Shown: positions 1,962 through 15,500 of the stretch, one piece after another | How positions within the stretch are numbered: position 1 is the first letter of the stretch | Layout: each line of letters starts with the position of its first letter | DNA from: Bugula neritina | Taxonomy: Eukaryota; Bryozoa; Gymnolaemata; Cheilostomatida; Bugulidae | Direction of reading: 5' to 3' | DNA: 64,000 bases | Assembly: GCA_964035545.1 (NCBI GenBank) | Contig: OZ037768.1 | Span: 4,331,241 to 4,395,240 of the forward strand | Position numbers and translations under genes: made by a program | The notes under the pieces: generated by a model | Databases searched by the model: none | Told to the model about the DNA's origin: nothing | The model's input: only the letters and a program-made list of their open reading frames with translations

Positions 1962-4900
1962 GTCTCACTCTCTCCTCCTGTATGGTATTTCCTGGCCAAT
2001 AGTTACTCAATCTACCCCTAGAAACTCGTAGTTATACGCATTTCAACTCGATTTAATCTCTTGGATGAGTTGCTCGTAAAAATATTGTTATTGGTTGGAT
2101 CCGTGCATTAAAAGACTCATTATCCGTTAATAAAATCTTTTCATTCTTATTTTAGCCACAATTTTTGTGTATAAAACACGAATGTCTTTTTATAAGAACT
2201 TGAGAAGTATTTAGACTCACTTAAGCTGCTGTTGAGTAATACGTGTTGATTCGTATGTTTGTAGACTGCAGACGTATTACAGTTCCTGTCAAAGATCCCG
2301 GCTGTACATATCTTGGTAAGTGATTTCATCAGTCAATCGCATTGGGTAACTTTTAGCTATGGTGGTGGGTGCTCTTCTATCAGCTCAACATTCTAGCCAA
2401 CTAACACGCTCTCCCAGCTTGTAAATATTGCTTTGCTTAATGTTTACTAGCTCTGCCACTGATTTGTACAAAGTGAGAATCTTGGATGTCACATGTTTTA
2501 TTTGTTTAAAATTAACTGCCATTAGAGGCAAAGCTCTATTCATTAACATTGCATGAAGTAATGCTCATTTCAAGTTTTAAATATTTATTAAGTTTAGTTT
2601 CTTATATAAACGCTCCTGCTGCAATTTTACGGAAAAGTAGCATTTTATTGATTGTTTTACGTAATAATGAAAAAATAAGTGATGTTTTGCATAGTTACAA
2701 CTCTAGCATAAAGTCTATAAGCTAATGTAGGAAGCATAGGGGTGGGAACTTTCAACTTTCAACAAGCTAATGGAAACTATTTTTGGTCTTACTTTTCCGT
2801 GGGAATGTTTAACCTCTTCCTGTTGGCTGGAATGCTGCTAATCCGTGATGGCGGTGACTTGATTGTAGAACAAAAAAGCCAAGGAACAAACTAAAAAGGG
2901 TGTAACTGAGTATTCTGGCCTGGGGGATCTGCTGGGTCAACTTTTGTCTGCCATTGTGAGTATTGACTGAGTGGTCTTAACTGAGTGCTGCCGTAGTGTG
3001 CTGCTGCTGCCGTGATCTTAGCTGAGTGCTGTTGCTGCTAGCTCTTCTATCTGCTATTTTGACAGTAATTGGTAATGCTGTAGGGTGGTAGTTGTCTGCC
3101 CCTGAAATTTGTGTGATTCATTATAATCTAATGCATGCATTCTCCGCATGCTCTAACCAATTAACATGTTTACAGAAAATGATTTCTTTTGCTTCTCTCT
3201 ATTACCTATGTTAAGATATATCTTTAGAAATATTAACCTTCACCTCGGACTAGGTCTTTCAAGTTTTTCCCTTAGCCTTAAATCTCACAATGCTTGTGAG
3301 ATTTTAGTACTAGTACTTTAGTACTAGTGTAATAAAACTATTTCTTTATAAGATAGTAAGTATTCATTTTTTCTAATTATTGCAGCAATTGGTCATCAAT
3401 TTGCACTGGCTAAAATATTGCATTTTTGCAATAATTTCGGGAAATTTTATATATTTTACATTTTAGTTGGTGTTTGAAATGGCCACTCCAGTTGTGATAT
3501 TCAAGTACGGGAAATCTCGAGAGGCGCCCGTTCCAGGTATGTTGTGCTATGTATTCTAGTGTAGTGTTATTCTATATAGTTTTGTGTCTTATGTAGTGAT
3601 GTGTGTTATGTAGGGTTGTATGTATCGTGTGATTAAGTAACATATGTGTAAGTTTTCTTCCATGAATTTGGAATTGCCCTCTTTAGTTCCTGGCGCTGAA
3701 TAATTTATTGCCGAGAATCCTACAGTTTTCCACTCATTTTCAAAGTTTTATTGTAATAATTTACTTTATGAGGATGTGTAGTGCTCAACACTTTCTTTTT
3801 TATTTTATAACTCCCAGACAAATAGTCCAATCAGTTAAATATATTGCTTCACTCTGTATACATGTAGTAAAGTTGTAAAAACGGCATAATTTAAAACTAA
3901 TTTTCCATTTTTGAAAAAGAGATGGTGCTGAATTTGGAATTGTATTCTTTTTTATGCTTAATCTGGCTGTTTATATACTAAACTCATAGTATAAGTATTT
4001 TTGTTACTCCCAATGCAATTTGCATATAGTGTAAAATAAGCATATATTTTGTCACTGGTGGAATTTTGGAGTTGTTGCACCTTGCAAGTACAAGTACATG
4101 CGCGTTTAATGATTCAGTGCAGAGTTGTATTTGGATGCTGTAATTGCTGTCAACATATTCCTGCAGAAGTTGCTCCGTATGCTGCTAGTCAAGATCCAGC
4201 ACCTCAGAAAGAGGCTGATGGTGACAATGACGAGAGGTTGAACAGATATCTGGAGTGTCTCAACATCTGGGTGAGTTGTAACTTTGTGTTGAGATGACAG
4301 GATTGAAATGATTGGGCGATCAGTGTTTTTATGTTTGGTTGTATTTTAGTTGCATGTGGTAATGAAAACATAATAATATAATATAAGTTTTATATTATGC
4401 TATAGACATAATAGTATAATATAAGCATAATAATATAACATAGCCGAATAAACTGTTAATTCTGAATTATCGTCAATTCCAAAGTTTTATTAATGAGTAA
4501 TCAATATTGTTTTAATAATTTTCTAAGCTTCTAATAAGAGTTTTTGATTCCTTTAAATCTGCACAAAATCTATGAGTATTTTGAGTAGATACAAGCCTTC
4601 AGTTACATTCACTAATTAACTGTATAATTCAACAATACTGTAAACAATACCTGCTCAGTCGTATTGCCACTAGGTATCAACTTGTGCATTGCCTTTATTG
4701 ATTGATTCCCCACCTATTGATTAGCTGTGAATTGAAAAGACCTTTGCTATTCTCTGTAATTGAAACAATGCTTGCAAATAGAATTGTTGATATTTTGTCT
4801 ACAACCCGTAATGAACAGTCTATTCATCGCAACTCATACAACTTTTTGCCTAAATCCAAAATCATTTTATAAAATAAACAGTGACTGTGTAAAGCATGCT

Positions 4901-9007: not shown

Positions 9008-9505
9008 CTATGTTCCCCGGGGAAACATAGTTGCCAGTGATACTACAATAGATATCGTGTAGAGGCAGAAGAATGTTCTGTCCAGAACTAAGGCTACGGC
9101 CCTCCACTCCCCTCTCACCTTCTCTAGACTCTCCTGTGCCCTCTGTTTGTATATTAATGTCTTGATAAACCTTCTTATCTCCTTGACGTCTGACTCAAGG
9201 CTCTGGTACAGGTGTATAGGAGACAAGTCAGGTGACTGATCTACGTTCTCCTTGATAGAGTTCTTACTAGTGTGGGTGTGGTTGTTGTGGTTATTAGCAT
9301 TGGCTTGGTTCACTCTGTAGGTGCACGGTGAATCTGTTAGAGAAGACAACTCACGTGGCTGATACTTATTGTATTTCATTTCGTGAGCCTTTATTTTCTT
9401 TAGTTCCTTCCTAATTCTAGGGTCTGTTTCAAATTGAGAAGGTGGTTTGTCTTTTGGGACGTAATTTGTCATGAAAACTACTCGTGCTAAGCCCACCAAC
9501 ACAAT
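9008..9505 (-). CDS. receptor last exon: intracellular loop and TM4
   Basis: 166 codons including the stop. It opens with [11 protein letters not shown], continuing the post-TM3 PYWVKR motif. The loop is polar and low in complexity (Asn/His-rich). TM4 follows the conserved [11 protein letters not shown] motif. Confidence 0.9.
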   Translation of the reverse strand: MVLVGLARVVFMTNYVPKDKPPSQFETDPRIRKELKKIKAHEMKYNKYQPRELSSLTDSPCTYRVNQANANNHNNHTHTSKNSIKENVDQSPDLSPIHLYQSLESDVKEIRRFIKTLIYKQRAQESLEKVRGEWRAVALVLDRTFFCLYTISIVVSLATMFPRGT

Positions 9506-12500
9506 CTACAAGGACATGCATAGTTGCTTTACACTCTGCAGTATTTTCCTGTTGAAATTGAAAATCAATGGTGCTTAAACCATCATGAAAATAACTATTT
9601 GCATTTGTGATATAGATAAACATTAAACAATGTTCAATATTTTACGTAGACCTTGAAATTTCTATACATGTTAAGTAAATCACTTGTATAATTTATGACT
9701 ACACCCATACTAATCCTATAACAGAGATACTCCCAAATACACATTTGAAAACTATCAAAACTTACTCGTTTAACCCAATAAGGAACTTTATTGGTTCGTG
9801 GACCGCGAAAATACAAGTGAATGACTACAACAGCTAAAAATGTCGATAAGGTTATCATAATCATGTTCAGACAGTAGTAGGCCCCTGCAATAGAGTAAAT
9901 AGAGAATATTATAACATAAGTAGAGAGGTTGCCCAATTTATTCAGCATTGTATATATGTATAGCTTGAGAAAAAATTGTCTGCCATAGTACTAAACATAT
10001 TTTTTTAATGTTATGTATAATGTGCATTAAAAATTCTAAAATTTTCTTCTGGTACCAAAAGTAATGATATATAGAGTTCTCATAGCAGACATTTTGAATT
10101 GCTAACTTTGTTTAATTTAATAACTTGAAATCACTAGAGTAGCATTTCCTTACAATAAGTGGTATATTGATTTCAAAAACTATACCTGTATAGTTAGCAG
10201 CCGACAATTATGTAAAAATCAAGTGTTAGTTATAAAAGAAAATAATATTAGTATTGAACTGTTAAACACCAAACTGGGTCACACAAACTATAATATGCGA
10301 AGTACTAAATATTGAAAATTAGTAAAGCATGCAAAAGCAGCAACCAAAAATCAATAGATAGAGTCAGGCTTTACAGCATTTCAATTTGTACAATGTGCTA
10401 TATGTGCATGTAGCTTGTGGGCAATAAACTGTTTAAATGCATTCAATGAACTCGATTTTTTCATTAGGTTAAATTAGAACCTTTCTATGTCAGTTAAACA
10501 AACCAATCAAATAATCATAAACATAAAATGTGAAGCACTCAAACAGATTTGTCATCTAACCTAATGTTTAATTGGCCAATTAATTTTGATTGCGATCTTG
10601 AAACTCAAACTATGCTGGTTTGATAATCAGGTCCTCTGTCTTGCTTTTAGCCCAAATAAGCAATTAACTGCAGCATAAGCATGTAACTTGAATTGAAGTA
10701 AATAATTAAATGTTATTTCAGAAAGTCAATTAGAATTGAAATGCTAGTGCCAATCTAAAAATGAATCAGTACCTATGCGGGGTATACTCTCTGAATCAGC
10801 AGGACACGAATCAGCTAACAGTAGTAACAACACAAAAAAGGCCACAAATATACTCATGCCTACAAATAGAGAATATTAATACAAGCCAACAGACTAAATA
10901 TTATATAAATCACTCTCATACATGTATTTTATAACTGGTACTTCAGATGTGCTGGGCTCCACAACTTCACTAACTTGACAAAATAAACTAATAATTATTT
11001 AGCCAGCGTTGAATTACCAGTTATTTCTATACATGTACAAAATCATAAGGGGGTGCTAACACTTCAAACAGTGATGTGCTTAATGCAACACTTTAAACCA
11101 GCTTGATGCAAAGCATAATTCCCTCATCAACTAATTGAAAGACATTTTCAGGACAACCCATGGTAATTAATGCTGATTCAGTCAAGCTGGTTAAAAGCAT
11201 TGCGTTTGCGAGTGGTGGAGTGAGTGACGTGGGGGTCTGCACAATGCTGCTGTTACCTATTAGCGGAATTGCTGCCGCAGCAGGTGGCGTGTTATCAGTC
11301 AATAACAGAAGTAGTAGAAAAAACGCCACAAAGATGTTCATTCCTAAAATTATATAACAATAATTTAAAATAAATAGTATACTAGTTTCTTGAACACAAA
11401 CAGGAATGTAATGGCTTTGCTTTGTTTTGTGTGAATGTCAAAGAATCATTCATGCAGTGGATAATGACTTGACATTGAGAATAGCTCTGCTTCTTCAATG
11501 ATATTTTGACCAGATTTTCTCAACTAATGCAAAATTATTGTTAAAATATACAAAAACTACTTATCAATAATTGCTAGTAATAATTTCTACACAAAGTGGT
11601 GTATTTCAAGTCTTTATATTCCAACAGCTGGCAATTTTAAATAATTTTCAAAATGCAGAGTAAAATATTATTTGTATCATAATATATAGTACATTTCATC
11701 ATACGAAAGCGATGAAAAAACGAGTAACATGTTAAATGGAACTTTCAGAATATATATATAAAGTGCATGATGCTTGCATATAATACCATGTAAAACATGA
11801 ACTGAAAATGCTATAAGGGCATTTACTCAGATTGTGTGTAAATGTACATTTACAGATGAAATTGCAATTGTACATTACCTGCTTGTTATTTTATAATTTA
11901 AATTTATTTATGATCATACGCACATCTAAATGCATGCGGATTTGCATTATGTCATCTACAATCAAGTTAAATTTGTACCATTGCATATTTTTTAAATGTT
12001 CAATACACGACTCAGAGTTTGTTCTGTGTAGAAAAGAAAGTTTGTGTAACACTAGAATGTTTCCCTAAAGACAAAACTAATGGTTTATAATTCTATTTAG
12101 TGGAAAAAGGAATAAATAATTATGATAAGAAAAGCACATCAAGCTTATTCCTTCTTCTGGAAGCCCAGTGTTACATTAGTAAAGTTTCTTTATGCTGTTG
12201 AAGTGTTAGGATAAAGTTTTCAAAACAATTAGTTGTACTAAAACAACTTCACTCCAACTGCATAATATGTTATAAAGTTAAGCTATTAGTCTGCACTGTG
12301 CTTATTGTATGAAACAGTCTAAGTAAGCATATATGCTGAGAAATATGCTTATTGTTGGTTATAGCACAGGTAATTCGTGCGGAGAGATAGTTGCACAAAA
12401 CTGAGCGAATCTAATGGGAAAAGGCACAACAAAGCTGATCTGCTGACAGCTACAAGAGGGACAGCTTACCCAGCTGCATTTTAGCAGCAGATTCTGGTGG

Positions 12501-15500
12501 CAGCCAGAATAGAATCATTGTCAGCAGGGAGAGCAGAACGCAGGGCAATATCAGAATGTAGTTGTAAAAAGCCACCTACAAAACCCAACCTATCATGAAG
12601 AAAATTAGTAAAGTTGACCTTGAGACAAGGTATACCAATAATTCCAGAGCTCTGATATGACTATTTATGTAATCAGTTCAACTGTGAGTCTCAGACTTAG
12701 AAAGTTGAGTTGTGACTTAAGTTTTATGACTTGCAGAGCTCTAGAAATGTATTGGTATGCCTTCAACGGCCTGATTTGTAACTTTGGCCGACACAAACTC
12801 ACCCATCTGCATCTTAGCAGGAGACTCAGGGGGCAGCCAGAAAAGCACCATAGTCAGTAATGAGAGTAGCACACAGGGTAATATCAGTATGTAACTGTAA
12901 AAGGCCACCTAAAAACTCATCACCAATAGTACAAGCATAAATTTATTTGCATTGAAATTTGTTCATTTCACTCCTAAAAGTATCATATATTTTATTTAGT
13001 TTAATATTTTATCTAATTATGATCAAATGTCACTGAAAAGCAGGAAAAGCTATGTTTCCTATAACAAGGCACTGTAATTTAATTTATGTGTTACAATGTA
13101 AATAATACAAGTTTTAACTCCACAAATGTCCACAAAGTCAAAGTATTTTGACTTCACAGCAATTTCCAACATACTAATCTGTTATATAACATGAAGCAGC
13201 ACAAGGTTGAATTTCTAACCAATAATTTTGATAGGATAAATCATTTGACTTTGGTGCTTGAACTTGCATCACATTAGTTTGAAGAGTTAAAAGTATCGAT
13301 TTTACCTGCCGTTTAATGACCACTGTAAAAGTGAGGTCAGGAAATGGCTGAGTGCAACACGGGTAGAAAATGACGTTCTTTCTACCGGGGTGAGCTAACA
13401 CGTCCCACTCATTACTAGGAACATAGTCCGTCAGAGAAATGTGCGGAGAATCCTAATAAAAAATACAGTTTCTAATTAGTGAGCCACATAATGGAATAAG
13501 AGTTCAAACACCCCCAGCAAACTATTGAGAGAGAGATGGAGTTATAAACCTGATTCTTAATTATATTATATAGAAATGCTTGTGGAGATCATTTATCTTG
13601 ATATTAAACTACTATAATTGAAAAATCAATGTCCATATCAGAGCTGCTTATGAAAGTATACAACAGCCCATACAGTGAAAAAAAGGCTGCACTGAAGTTA
13701 TATTAGACATGAGTGACCACTATTTGAAATATATAGTTATAGGAATATCTTACTTGATAGAAATCTATATCCAATTTTAATCCATCGTAAGACCAGGAGC
13801 CAAACTTGAGATGGCAGATTTGGGAGTCAAACGGGAAGTTTGTAATATCAATTGAGCAGGCGCTTTTAAATATACTCGTTGGAATCCAAAGCACTTCACC
13901 ATTCTCTGACACCACACAGAGAGCATCGCGGAACTCTGACAGTCGGTCATCAGCGCTGTAAATGTTACCATGACAACATGTAAACACATTTTGAATGTTA
14001 TCTGGAAGGTTTACGATATTACTTTGTTTGCTGATCGCAAATCTTTGAAAAAAAACTAATTTTTTAAATAGTAGTGTTGACAAAGTTGAGTTATAATGTT
14101 AAATTTCTGCCTAATTTATTTATAAAAAATGTAAGTAAACAGCAACTAACATGTAAAATCAAATACATCATTTTCTTTTATAAACAACTGTGAGTTATAT
14201 ATTGAAGGACACTGCTGGACCTAAGCAAATAAGTTGCCCACTTTTGTTTAAAATTGTTCCACATTTGTACCATACCCTTGTTTTTAAATACAAATTAGAA
14301 GTACATAATATATAGATCATTTTTGTATTCTGTAATTATGCATATGAAAAATTTCAATAGTTTCATTCTTATTAACACTGGTGAGAAAACTAATTGCACT
14401 TATATATAGAATACTTACCTTTGTTATATTACATATGCAATGCAATTGTTGTGTAAGTGGTTAATAATTAACAAAAGTTCTTTTCAAGCCTATAGCTTCC
14501 ATTCATATAATTACCTCTATTGTATGATCATGGGAATTGCCATAGGCAGTATGAGCATGATGCAGTTATGAGAAGACGCTATATCCACATACGTAGTAGG
14601 TGTGGGTGGAAAATTTACATTGTACTTATAGTAAATAGTAACAGTACTAAAAGAATGTATTATGTAAGCTGAGAGTTGAGCCTTACAGAAATGAAATAAA
14701 TTGAAATAAACCAACAAACTAAAGTTATAAAATTTAAAAAATTTTTGCATTTAAACTGTTTAGTATTTTTGATATTTGACACTTTCAAATAGAATTAAGG
14801 GATCTCGTCATAGGAAGGTAATATTAAGTACTCAATATACGAACTAGTTGTAAAGCACTAAGTCAGGTCTCCAAATATCTTTAGCAGGAACTCGAACTTC
14901 ACTGACTCCACCATAATCACTTGAGTTCCAGCTGAGTAGATAGTCTGTCCAAATCTGTTATAAGAATAATATTACTATCACAGACTATAAGCATTTCTGT
15001 ATATATAGTATTGATCATTTTCAAGAACTTGATTCTAACTGAACTAAATCTGCATTAAAAAACTGCTTGTATTTATATTTATTGTGGTTATTCCACATTA
15101 TGTGATGGTACGTTAATAAAATTTAACGAAGATGGTAGTATGATTTGGCAAACTCTACATTGTCATATCTAAAAGCAATTTAACAGCATGCAACAGTATC
15201 TTTGTATATCTTCACTAAAAATTACCACATGGAAAAAAACCGCTTTAATAATGCATGAAATTTGGAAGCCAACCGGTATTTAGATATAGTAGTTGTTACC
15301 AGACGGTTCCAAGCCCTGATAGTCAGTACTTGATTCTTCTCATCTAGTCTAAGAATCTGCACTAAGCCAAGTCCATATTTGAGAGAGATTGGTTCAGAGG
15401 AGTTTTTGACGGGTCTACCGGTAACTCCAGCCTCCTTGTATGTGTCTATGAGATCTTTTATCAGCCTCTTTTCATGCGAGAGCGCTAGATTACCTACCAA

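Follow-up and report, generated by a model that had tools for sequence, protein, structure and literature searches.

Does a single nicotinic acetylcholine receptor (nAChR)-type gene of the bryozoan Bugula neritina supply one ligand-binding domain with more than one pore? The question arises from a 64,000-nucleotide (nt) stretch of chromosome 4 (C4, OZ037768.1; positions 4,331,241-4,395,240; hereafter the window), in which such a gene lies on the minus strand from 15493 to 9008 and in which an initial annotation, made from the letters alone, had noted that the neighboring exons for transmembrane segments 1 and 2 (TM1 and TM2) each occur twice. Our analysis points with good, if incomplete, confidence to a receptor gene of the Pro-Ala clade described below in which TM1a/b and TM2a/b form two tandem sets of mutually exclusive exons, allowing up to four pores. 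The exclusive use of the copies, its regulation, and its electrical effect are the parts of this reading that we infer.

Two doubled pore exons in one receptor gene

Translation and inspection of exon borders confirmed the genomic order TM1a, TM1b, TM2a, and TM2b, spanning 12908-10773, with AG before and GT after each copy and with equal lengths and identical phases within each pair (106 and 106 nt for TM1; 87 and 87 nt for TM2), as the initial annotation had claimed. TM1a and TM1b share 85 of 106 nt, with 4 of 35 residues differing, and TM2a and TM2b share 51 of 87 nt, with 11 of 29 residues differing, the residue counts being those first given. When we searched exon translations over the 64 kb with tblastn, TM1 and TM2 each found two strong places, and the four ligand-binding exons, TM3, and TM4 found one place each. 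This search revealed no convincing further TM1 or TM2 copies and no convincing doubled ligand-binding exons in this gene, which agrees with the proposal of one receptor gene with two doubled pore exons and all other exons single copy. A repeat finder recovered a 118-nt pair, 81% alike, that barely exceeds the TM1 exons; the TM2 pair fell below its threshold. Because the similarity is confined to exons, the phases are identical, and the TM1 differences are biased toward third codon positions, the doubled exons are not chance similarity. Length, phase, splice sites, and homology also fit criteria for predicting mutually exclusive exons given in excerpts of a published study (PMC3228551).

The same comparisons bear on an assembly artefact in which haplotypes or genes were merged, an explanation that we found no point to support and to which we give almost no credence. 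The copies are only 80% (TM1) and 59% (TM2) identical, their order is TM1-TM1-TM2-TM2 and not TM1-TM2-TM1-TM2, the repeat similarity stops near exon borders, and the published assembly is given a quality value (QV) of 53.7 (PMC11480708).

All four single-choice combinations form one open frame of 487 residues with a terminal stop (signal-peptide exon excluded), upholding the earlier suggestion that up to four pore versions could share one ligand-binding domain. The reading frame had also been said to force a choice between copies. This proved correct for TM1, as joining TM1a to TM1b shifts the frame and meets stops, and a form lacking TM1 is likewise out of frame. It did not extend to TM2, for which joining both copies or omitting both keeps the frame. 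Since the 106 nt of TM1 shift the frame and the 87 nt of TM2 do not, the frame alone bars doubling at TM1 only.

Searching the whole genome (215,847,546 bases in 295 contigs) with TM1a-TM2a revealed a single close second gene (hereafter the paralogue); it lies on chromosome 5 and matches at 87% over TM1 and 87% over TM2. Database relatives inform whether both TM2 exons might be included together, adding a hydrophobic segment. TM2a and TM2b joined are in frame, and annotated proteins of Dimorphilus gyrociliatus (DgyrCDS7085; P0006) and Pinctada imbricata (FSP39_006302; P0086) contain two TM2 head to tail. However, a double TM2 would break the four-helix topology, and the tandem TM2 in P0006 and P0086 probably represents merged alternative exons, P0006 having extra residues just before the pair. 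Furthermore, P0157 (a protein from a JGI contig; 71% to the chromosome 4 gene and 62% to the paralogue) has one TM2: it runs from inside an a-type TM2 through TM3 to TM4 with no break. Because the TM2-TM3 and TM3-TM4 junctions hold introns in both Bugula genes, P0157 is most likely a product of spliced RNA and documents the use of a single a-type TM2 in a relative; starting inside TM2, it is uninformative on TM1. We therefore regard joint inclusion of both TM2 exons as highly improbable. The double TM2 of P0006 and P0086 suggests that TM2 doubling is recurrent in the family, as in insect alpha6 exon 8.

In the model of two exclusive pairs, the loop-C exon would be spliced to one TM1 copy, then to one TM2 copy, and then to TM3, placing four possible pores on an unchanged ligand-binding domain. 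The TM1 choice would set the -2' filter residue as Pro or Ala, the TM2 choice would set the outer pore and the TM2-TM3 loop, and any TM1-doubled product would be spoiled by the frameshift.

Both receptor domains exceeded their curated cut-offs in the a/a form (Neur_chan_LBD, 200.7 bits; Neur_chan_memb, 124 bits) and in the b/b form (200.7 and 120 bits, respectively). The vicinal cysteines in ligand-binding exon 4 are of the alpha type, and the two cysteines of the Cys-loop in exon 3 are 13 residues apart (Table 1). Ligand-binding exon 2, which we take to hold loops D/A, has a weak donor (AACTA/gttcgt); the corresponding donor in the paralogue is gtaagt. The signal-peptide exon, upstream of 15493, was not located.

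Table 1. Exons of the chromosome 4 receptor gene and the introns lying among its doubled pore exons (window coordinates), with doubled exons of two other Bugula nAChR genes
Feature	Position	Strand	Characteristics	Basis
Ligand-binding exon 1	15300..15493	-	N-terminal part	AG before, GT after; translation in frame
Ligand-binding exon 2	14845..14954	-		Splice borders, frame
Ligand-binding exon 3	13754..13955	-	Cys-loop and loop B	PF02931 match; frame
Ligand-binding exon 4	13306..13452	-	Loop C with vicinal cysteines YPCC	tblastn, frame
TM1a exon	12803..12908	-	106 nt; filter PPESPAK (Pro-Ala)	AG/GT borders, translation
TM1a-TM1b intron	12576..12802	-	227 nt; stem arms 12771-12742 / 12646-12616; fold z -3.59	Fold prediction
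TM1b exon	12470..12575	-	106 nt; filter PPESAAK (Ala-Ala)	AG/GT borders, translation
TM1b-TM2a intron	11344..12469	-	1,126 nt; fold z -2.59	Fold prediction
TM2a exon	11257..11343	-	87 nt; a-type loop	AG/GT borders, translation
TM2a-TM2b intron	10860..11256	-	397 nt; two long stems predicted, with arms at 11203-11174/11112-11085 and at 11040-11010/10945-10916; fold z -2.73	Fold prediction
TM2b exon	10773..10859	-	87 nt; divergent loop	AG/GT borders, translation
TM3 exon	9766..9884	-	Single copy	tblastn, frame
TM3-TM4 loop and TM4 exon	9008..9505	-	Single copy, with stop codon	tblastn, frame
Doubled loop D/A exon, first Glu-type gene	L024:3347-3451 and 3716-3820 (C7 about 3,097,346-3,097,819)		Candidate exclusive exons	AG/GT
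Doubled loop D/A exon, second Glu-type gene	L025:1777-1881 and 2205-2309 (C5 about 4,809,776-4,810,308)		Candidate exclusive exons	AG/GT

The selectivity filter and the receptor family

The initial annotation had stressed the TM2-TM3 loop. We think that the main point is instead TM1, whose copy b has another residue in place of the -2' proline that belongs to the Pro-Ala anion-selectivity motif. With the filter lysine numbered 0', TM1a reads S-P-A-K and TM1b reads S-A-A-K, Ala -1' and Lys 0' being common to both. Alignments showed no length change relative to human-type alpha7 and alpha3, which read S-G-E-K or C-G-E-K there. Excerpts of one study describe Pro-Ala replacing the intermediate-ring Glu as a mark of Lymnaea and schistosome nAChRs of the anion type (PMC4055736). 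TM1a carries this motif, the criterion for the spiralian acetylcholine-gated chloride channel clade. In TM1b, the Glu is replaced and the Pro is absent, and forms with TM1b are for that reason not assigned as chloride channels.

Relatives were collected from protein searches with the full-length sequence, the region, and a 171-residue query chosen to pick up short fragments, which scored 7,991, 124, and 522 candidates, respectively, and listed at most the best 120 of each. Together, these searches listed 261 proteins, 28 of them without a readable motif; among the remaining 233 listed relatives, the filter read SPAK in 215, SPSK in 13, SAAK in 3, and SSAK in 2. An SIWK read in P0016 was rejected as a false site beside the true SPAK. 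Three relatives besides this gene, P0007, P0175, and P0224, yielded SAAK and no other motif. P0007 adjoins bryozoan sequences (support of 0.93 in one tree and 91 in the other) and may itself be bryozoan. In the short predicted proteins P0246 and P0248-P0251, the TM3 exon is about 93% identical to that of this gene, suggesting that other sequenced species, perhaps bryozoans, probably carry orthologues.

Both receptor domains were present in all of the best 120 of 7,991 relatives, and the best relative among the matches listed was a Watersipora subatra 'alpha-10-like' nAChR (66%). In a tree of the region from loop C to TM3 (153 residues), this gene, the paralogue, and the Watersipora protein fall among Pro-Ala nAChRs, and the Pro-Ala group is split with 100% support from six Glu-type Bugula sequences and two fish segments. 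The grouping of the a/a and b/b forms in this tree is uninformative because loop C and TM3 are identical in both. Motif and tree place the gene in the spiralian Pro-Ala (anion-type) nAChR clade, which includes the snail and schistosome acetylcholine-gated chloride channels, and its channel is probably acetylcholine gated and of the chloride type.

Absence of the proline from TM1b allows a bolder proposal, in which the TM1 choice would be a splice-coded sign switch: TM1a would form an anion pore and TM1b a cation-permissive or poorly selective one on the same binding site, with TM2 tuning gating. If true, acetylcholine could inhibit one cell and excite another through the products of one gene. 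Lys 0' and Ala -1' in both TM1 copies argue against this switch, as does the Ala at -2' of anion-selective GABA-A beta subunits. In alpha7, by the excerpts of a mutational study, anion selectivity needed an added proline, and removal of the Glu without the proline left the channel cationic (PMC6800317). This result keeps the switch worth considering, although we think it unlikely. Most likely, exon choice would adjust by degrees how an anion channel conducts, where its size cut-off lies, how selective it is, and how it gates.

We also observed features of other Bugula nAChR genes. Receptor-domain clusters at C4:16.18-16.24 Mb, C1:3.84-3.90 Mb, and C4:4.313-4.322 Mb represent tandem nAChR-type genes, and two of the clustered genes lie about 20 kb from the gene analyzed here. 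Two Glu-type nAChR genes contain the loop D/loop A ligand-binding exon in two same-length copies with AG/GT borders. These doubled exons are further candidate exclusive exons, located in the binding site and common to two paralogues.

Constraint, age, and intron folding

The TM1 copies contain 21 nt differences in 105, distributed over codon positions as 4/1/16, with 0.059 nonsynonymous (dN) and 1.40 synonymous (dS) substitutions per site (NG86). The pair shows 4 residue changes versus 13.5 expected without selection, and on the TM1b branch, taken from a majority ancestor, 15 changes produced 3 residue changes versus 9.9 expected; in neither case did any of 20,000 simulations fall that low. 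These findings indicate that TM1b is under clear purifying selection, and we read it as functional. Neither the open frame, the substitution pattern, nor the simulations revealed decay of the second copies in this gene.

These results weigh on the alternative that neither b copy reaches protein and that both are old relics or decoys, with TM1b at most shutting the gene off by frameshift. TM1b added after TM1a would shift the frame and bring in a stop, much like poison-exon control, and the b copies are without RNA support. A pure poison exon would not have to preserve its residues, whereas TM1b is strongly constrained, and decay would be the expected fate of relics with a dS above 1. We thus consider this alternative very unlikely.

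Between TM1a and the paralogue, dS was 1.80 (NG86) or 1.15 (YN00), similar to the value for TM1a and TM1b, and dS above 1 implies that the TM1 copies are old, yet intact. The TM2 dS was mostly not computable due to saturation. Identity to the paralogue is 83% for the Watersipora protein and 65% for this gene, which implies that the gene and its paralogue split before Bugula and Watersipora did. TM1b and TM2b carry N5, V13', and A19', the commonest residues among relatives, and TM1a and TM2a share S5, L13', and T19' with Watersipora and the paralogue. This pattern hints that the exons were duplicated before the gene split, a matter that three residues do not decide.

For the TM2 pair, we found 36 nt differences and 11 residue changes versus 19.3 expected, with no simulation as low. 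TM2b departs from TM2a in the helix at 6', 13', and 19', but the differences lie mainly in the TM2-TM3 loop, which couples binding to gating. This loop had been described as neutral in copy a and charged in copy b. The added charges of copy b, D25', E27', and R31', are present as described, but copy a is not fully neutral, with D20' occurring in both.

Several observations weigh against exclusive use of both pairs. Substitutions found only in TM2b are spread over codon positions as 7/7/5 (P = 0.81), and this lack of a third-position excess suggests that TM2b may be relaxed. On the branch of TM2b itself, tests for constraint gave P = 0.0017 overall and were modest for the helix (P = 0.028) and loop (P = 0.040) separately. 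No b-type TM2 loop matching that of TM2b was found among the retrieved relatives listed. In addition, the paralogue carries TM1 (SPAK) and TM2 once each, both of the a type, with no hidden b copies detected at an E value of 0.05, and no Bugula protein of this gene was among the matches listed in the protein database for the full-length, region, or 171-residue queries.

Some of these observations would be explained if only TM1 were a true alternative pair and TM2b were relaxed or dying and rarely or never used. Besides its even substitutions and unmatched loop, TM2b differs at 11 of 29 residues from TM2a and at 11 of 29 from the paralogue, and the orthologue-like P0157 uses an a-type TM2. Against this, TM2b retains an open frame, its exact length, and AG/GT sites; its residue changes are fewer than neutral in both helix and loop on its own branch, and helix constraint measured against the paralogue is stronger (P = 0.0015). 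Moreover, IPRIG-type loops like that of TM2b are present in rotifer relatives, but these have SPSK filters and a single TM2 in the annotated protein. We consider the loss of TM2b from use unlikely and favor TM2b as probably functional with a fast-changing loop.

How exclusive choice might be enforced is suggested by predicted intron folding. The TM1a-TM1b intron folds at -61.2 kcal/mol, with a z score of -3.59 versus shuffled sequences, and the TM2a-TM2b intron has a z score of -2.73; six other introns of the gene range from -0.62 to +1.12, and four introns of the paralogue range from +0.08 to +1.47. Unusually good folding is not confined to the two between-copy introns, as the TM1b-TM2a intron, which lies between no duplicate pair, also reached -2.59 (24 shuffles). 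Unusual folding thus extends to all three introns between TM1a and TM2b, which adds to the points against our model. So do random pieces of the window, of which 3 of 120 (227 nt) reached -3.59, 2 of 60 (397 nt) reached -2.73, and 26 of 300 had a comparable long stem. Given these rates, each intron fold alone is only suggestive, and the pattern was spotted after the fact. A transposon origin of the stems was rejected, as each between-copy intron matched nothing but itself in a genome search that skips very common words.

For exclusive exons, a donor-branch distance of about 50 nt is cited as the steric threshold in excerpts of a published study (PMC7969005). The TM1a donor lies about 198 nt from a TM1b branch-like adenine, guessed from CTAAT, in linear distance, and the full TM1 intron stem would bring it to about 42 nt, below the threshold. 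With the stem core only, the distance would be about 71 nt, which exceeds the threshold, and the pair probability of the outer stem is about 0.45-0.7. Steric-hindrance exclusion at TM1 is a possible outcome of this predicted fold, and the well-folding introns possibly serve as a device enforcing exclusive choice.

Comparison with known systems

If the exons are used as our model proposes, the gene would provide a natural two-by-two panel of pores that vary in the filter proline and the gating loop but share one binding site, and splicing would widen the range of one receptor gene in an animal with a simple nervous system. Exclusive TM2 exons are known from insect alpha6 and exclusive filter exons from NALCN; in the titles and abstract openings listed from the open-licence literature, no paper described a pentameric receptor whose TM1/filter exon is doubled, a gene in which both pore exons are doubled, or nAChR splicing in bryozoans.

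Insect alpha6 is of the Glu cation type, and its second alternative cluster is exon 3, in the ligand-binding part and not in TM1. As in the Bugula gene, alpha6 exons 8a/8b/8c are tandem TM2-bearing exons of which usually one is chosen, and this TM2 cluster is combined with a second alternative cluster (3a/3b); excerpts of these reports state that all six exon combinations were found in Tribolium by reverse transcription-PCR (PMC2064938, PMC1919356). Unlike in the Bugula gene, the filter proline is not swapped in alpha6. NALCN exons 15a/15b of Lymnaea and other invertebrates are, like those described here, mutually exclusive exons that alter selectivity-filter residues (PMC3557258), but NALCN is a four-domain channel with one such cluster and not a ligand-gated pentamer. 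Of the same family as the Bugula gene are Dimorphilus P0006 and Pinctada P0086, with tandem TM2 as from a merged duplicated exon; these are known from annotated proteins alone, and a doubled TM1 was not seen in them.

The Lymnaea anionic nAChRs and SmACC belong to the same Pro-Ala clade and have the filter of TM1a (PMC4055736). The excerpts of that report mention no alternative pore exon, whereas the Bugula gene also has an Ala-Ala filter exon. Engineered mutants have been used to examine what the proline does for anion selectivity (PMC4055736, PMC6800317); in the Bugula gene, evolution may have kept both filter versions together, and TM1a and TM1b would then represent a natural test of that role.

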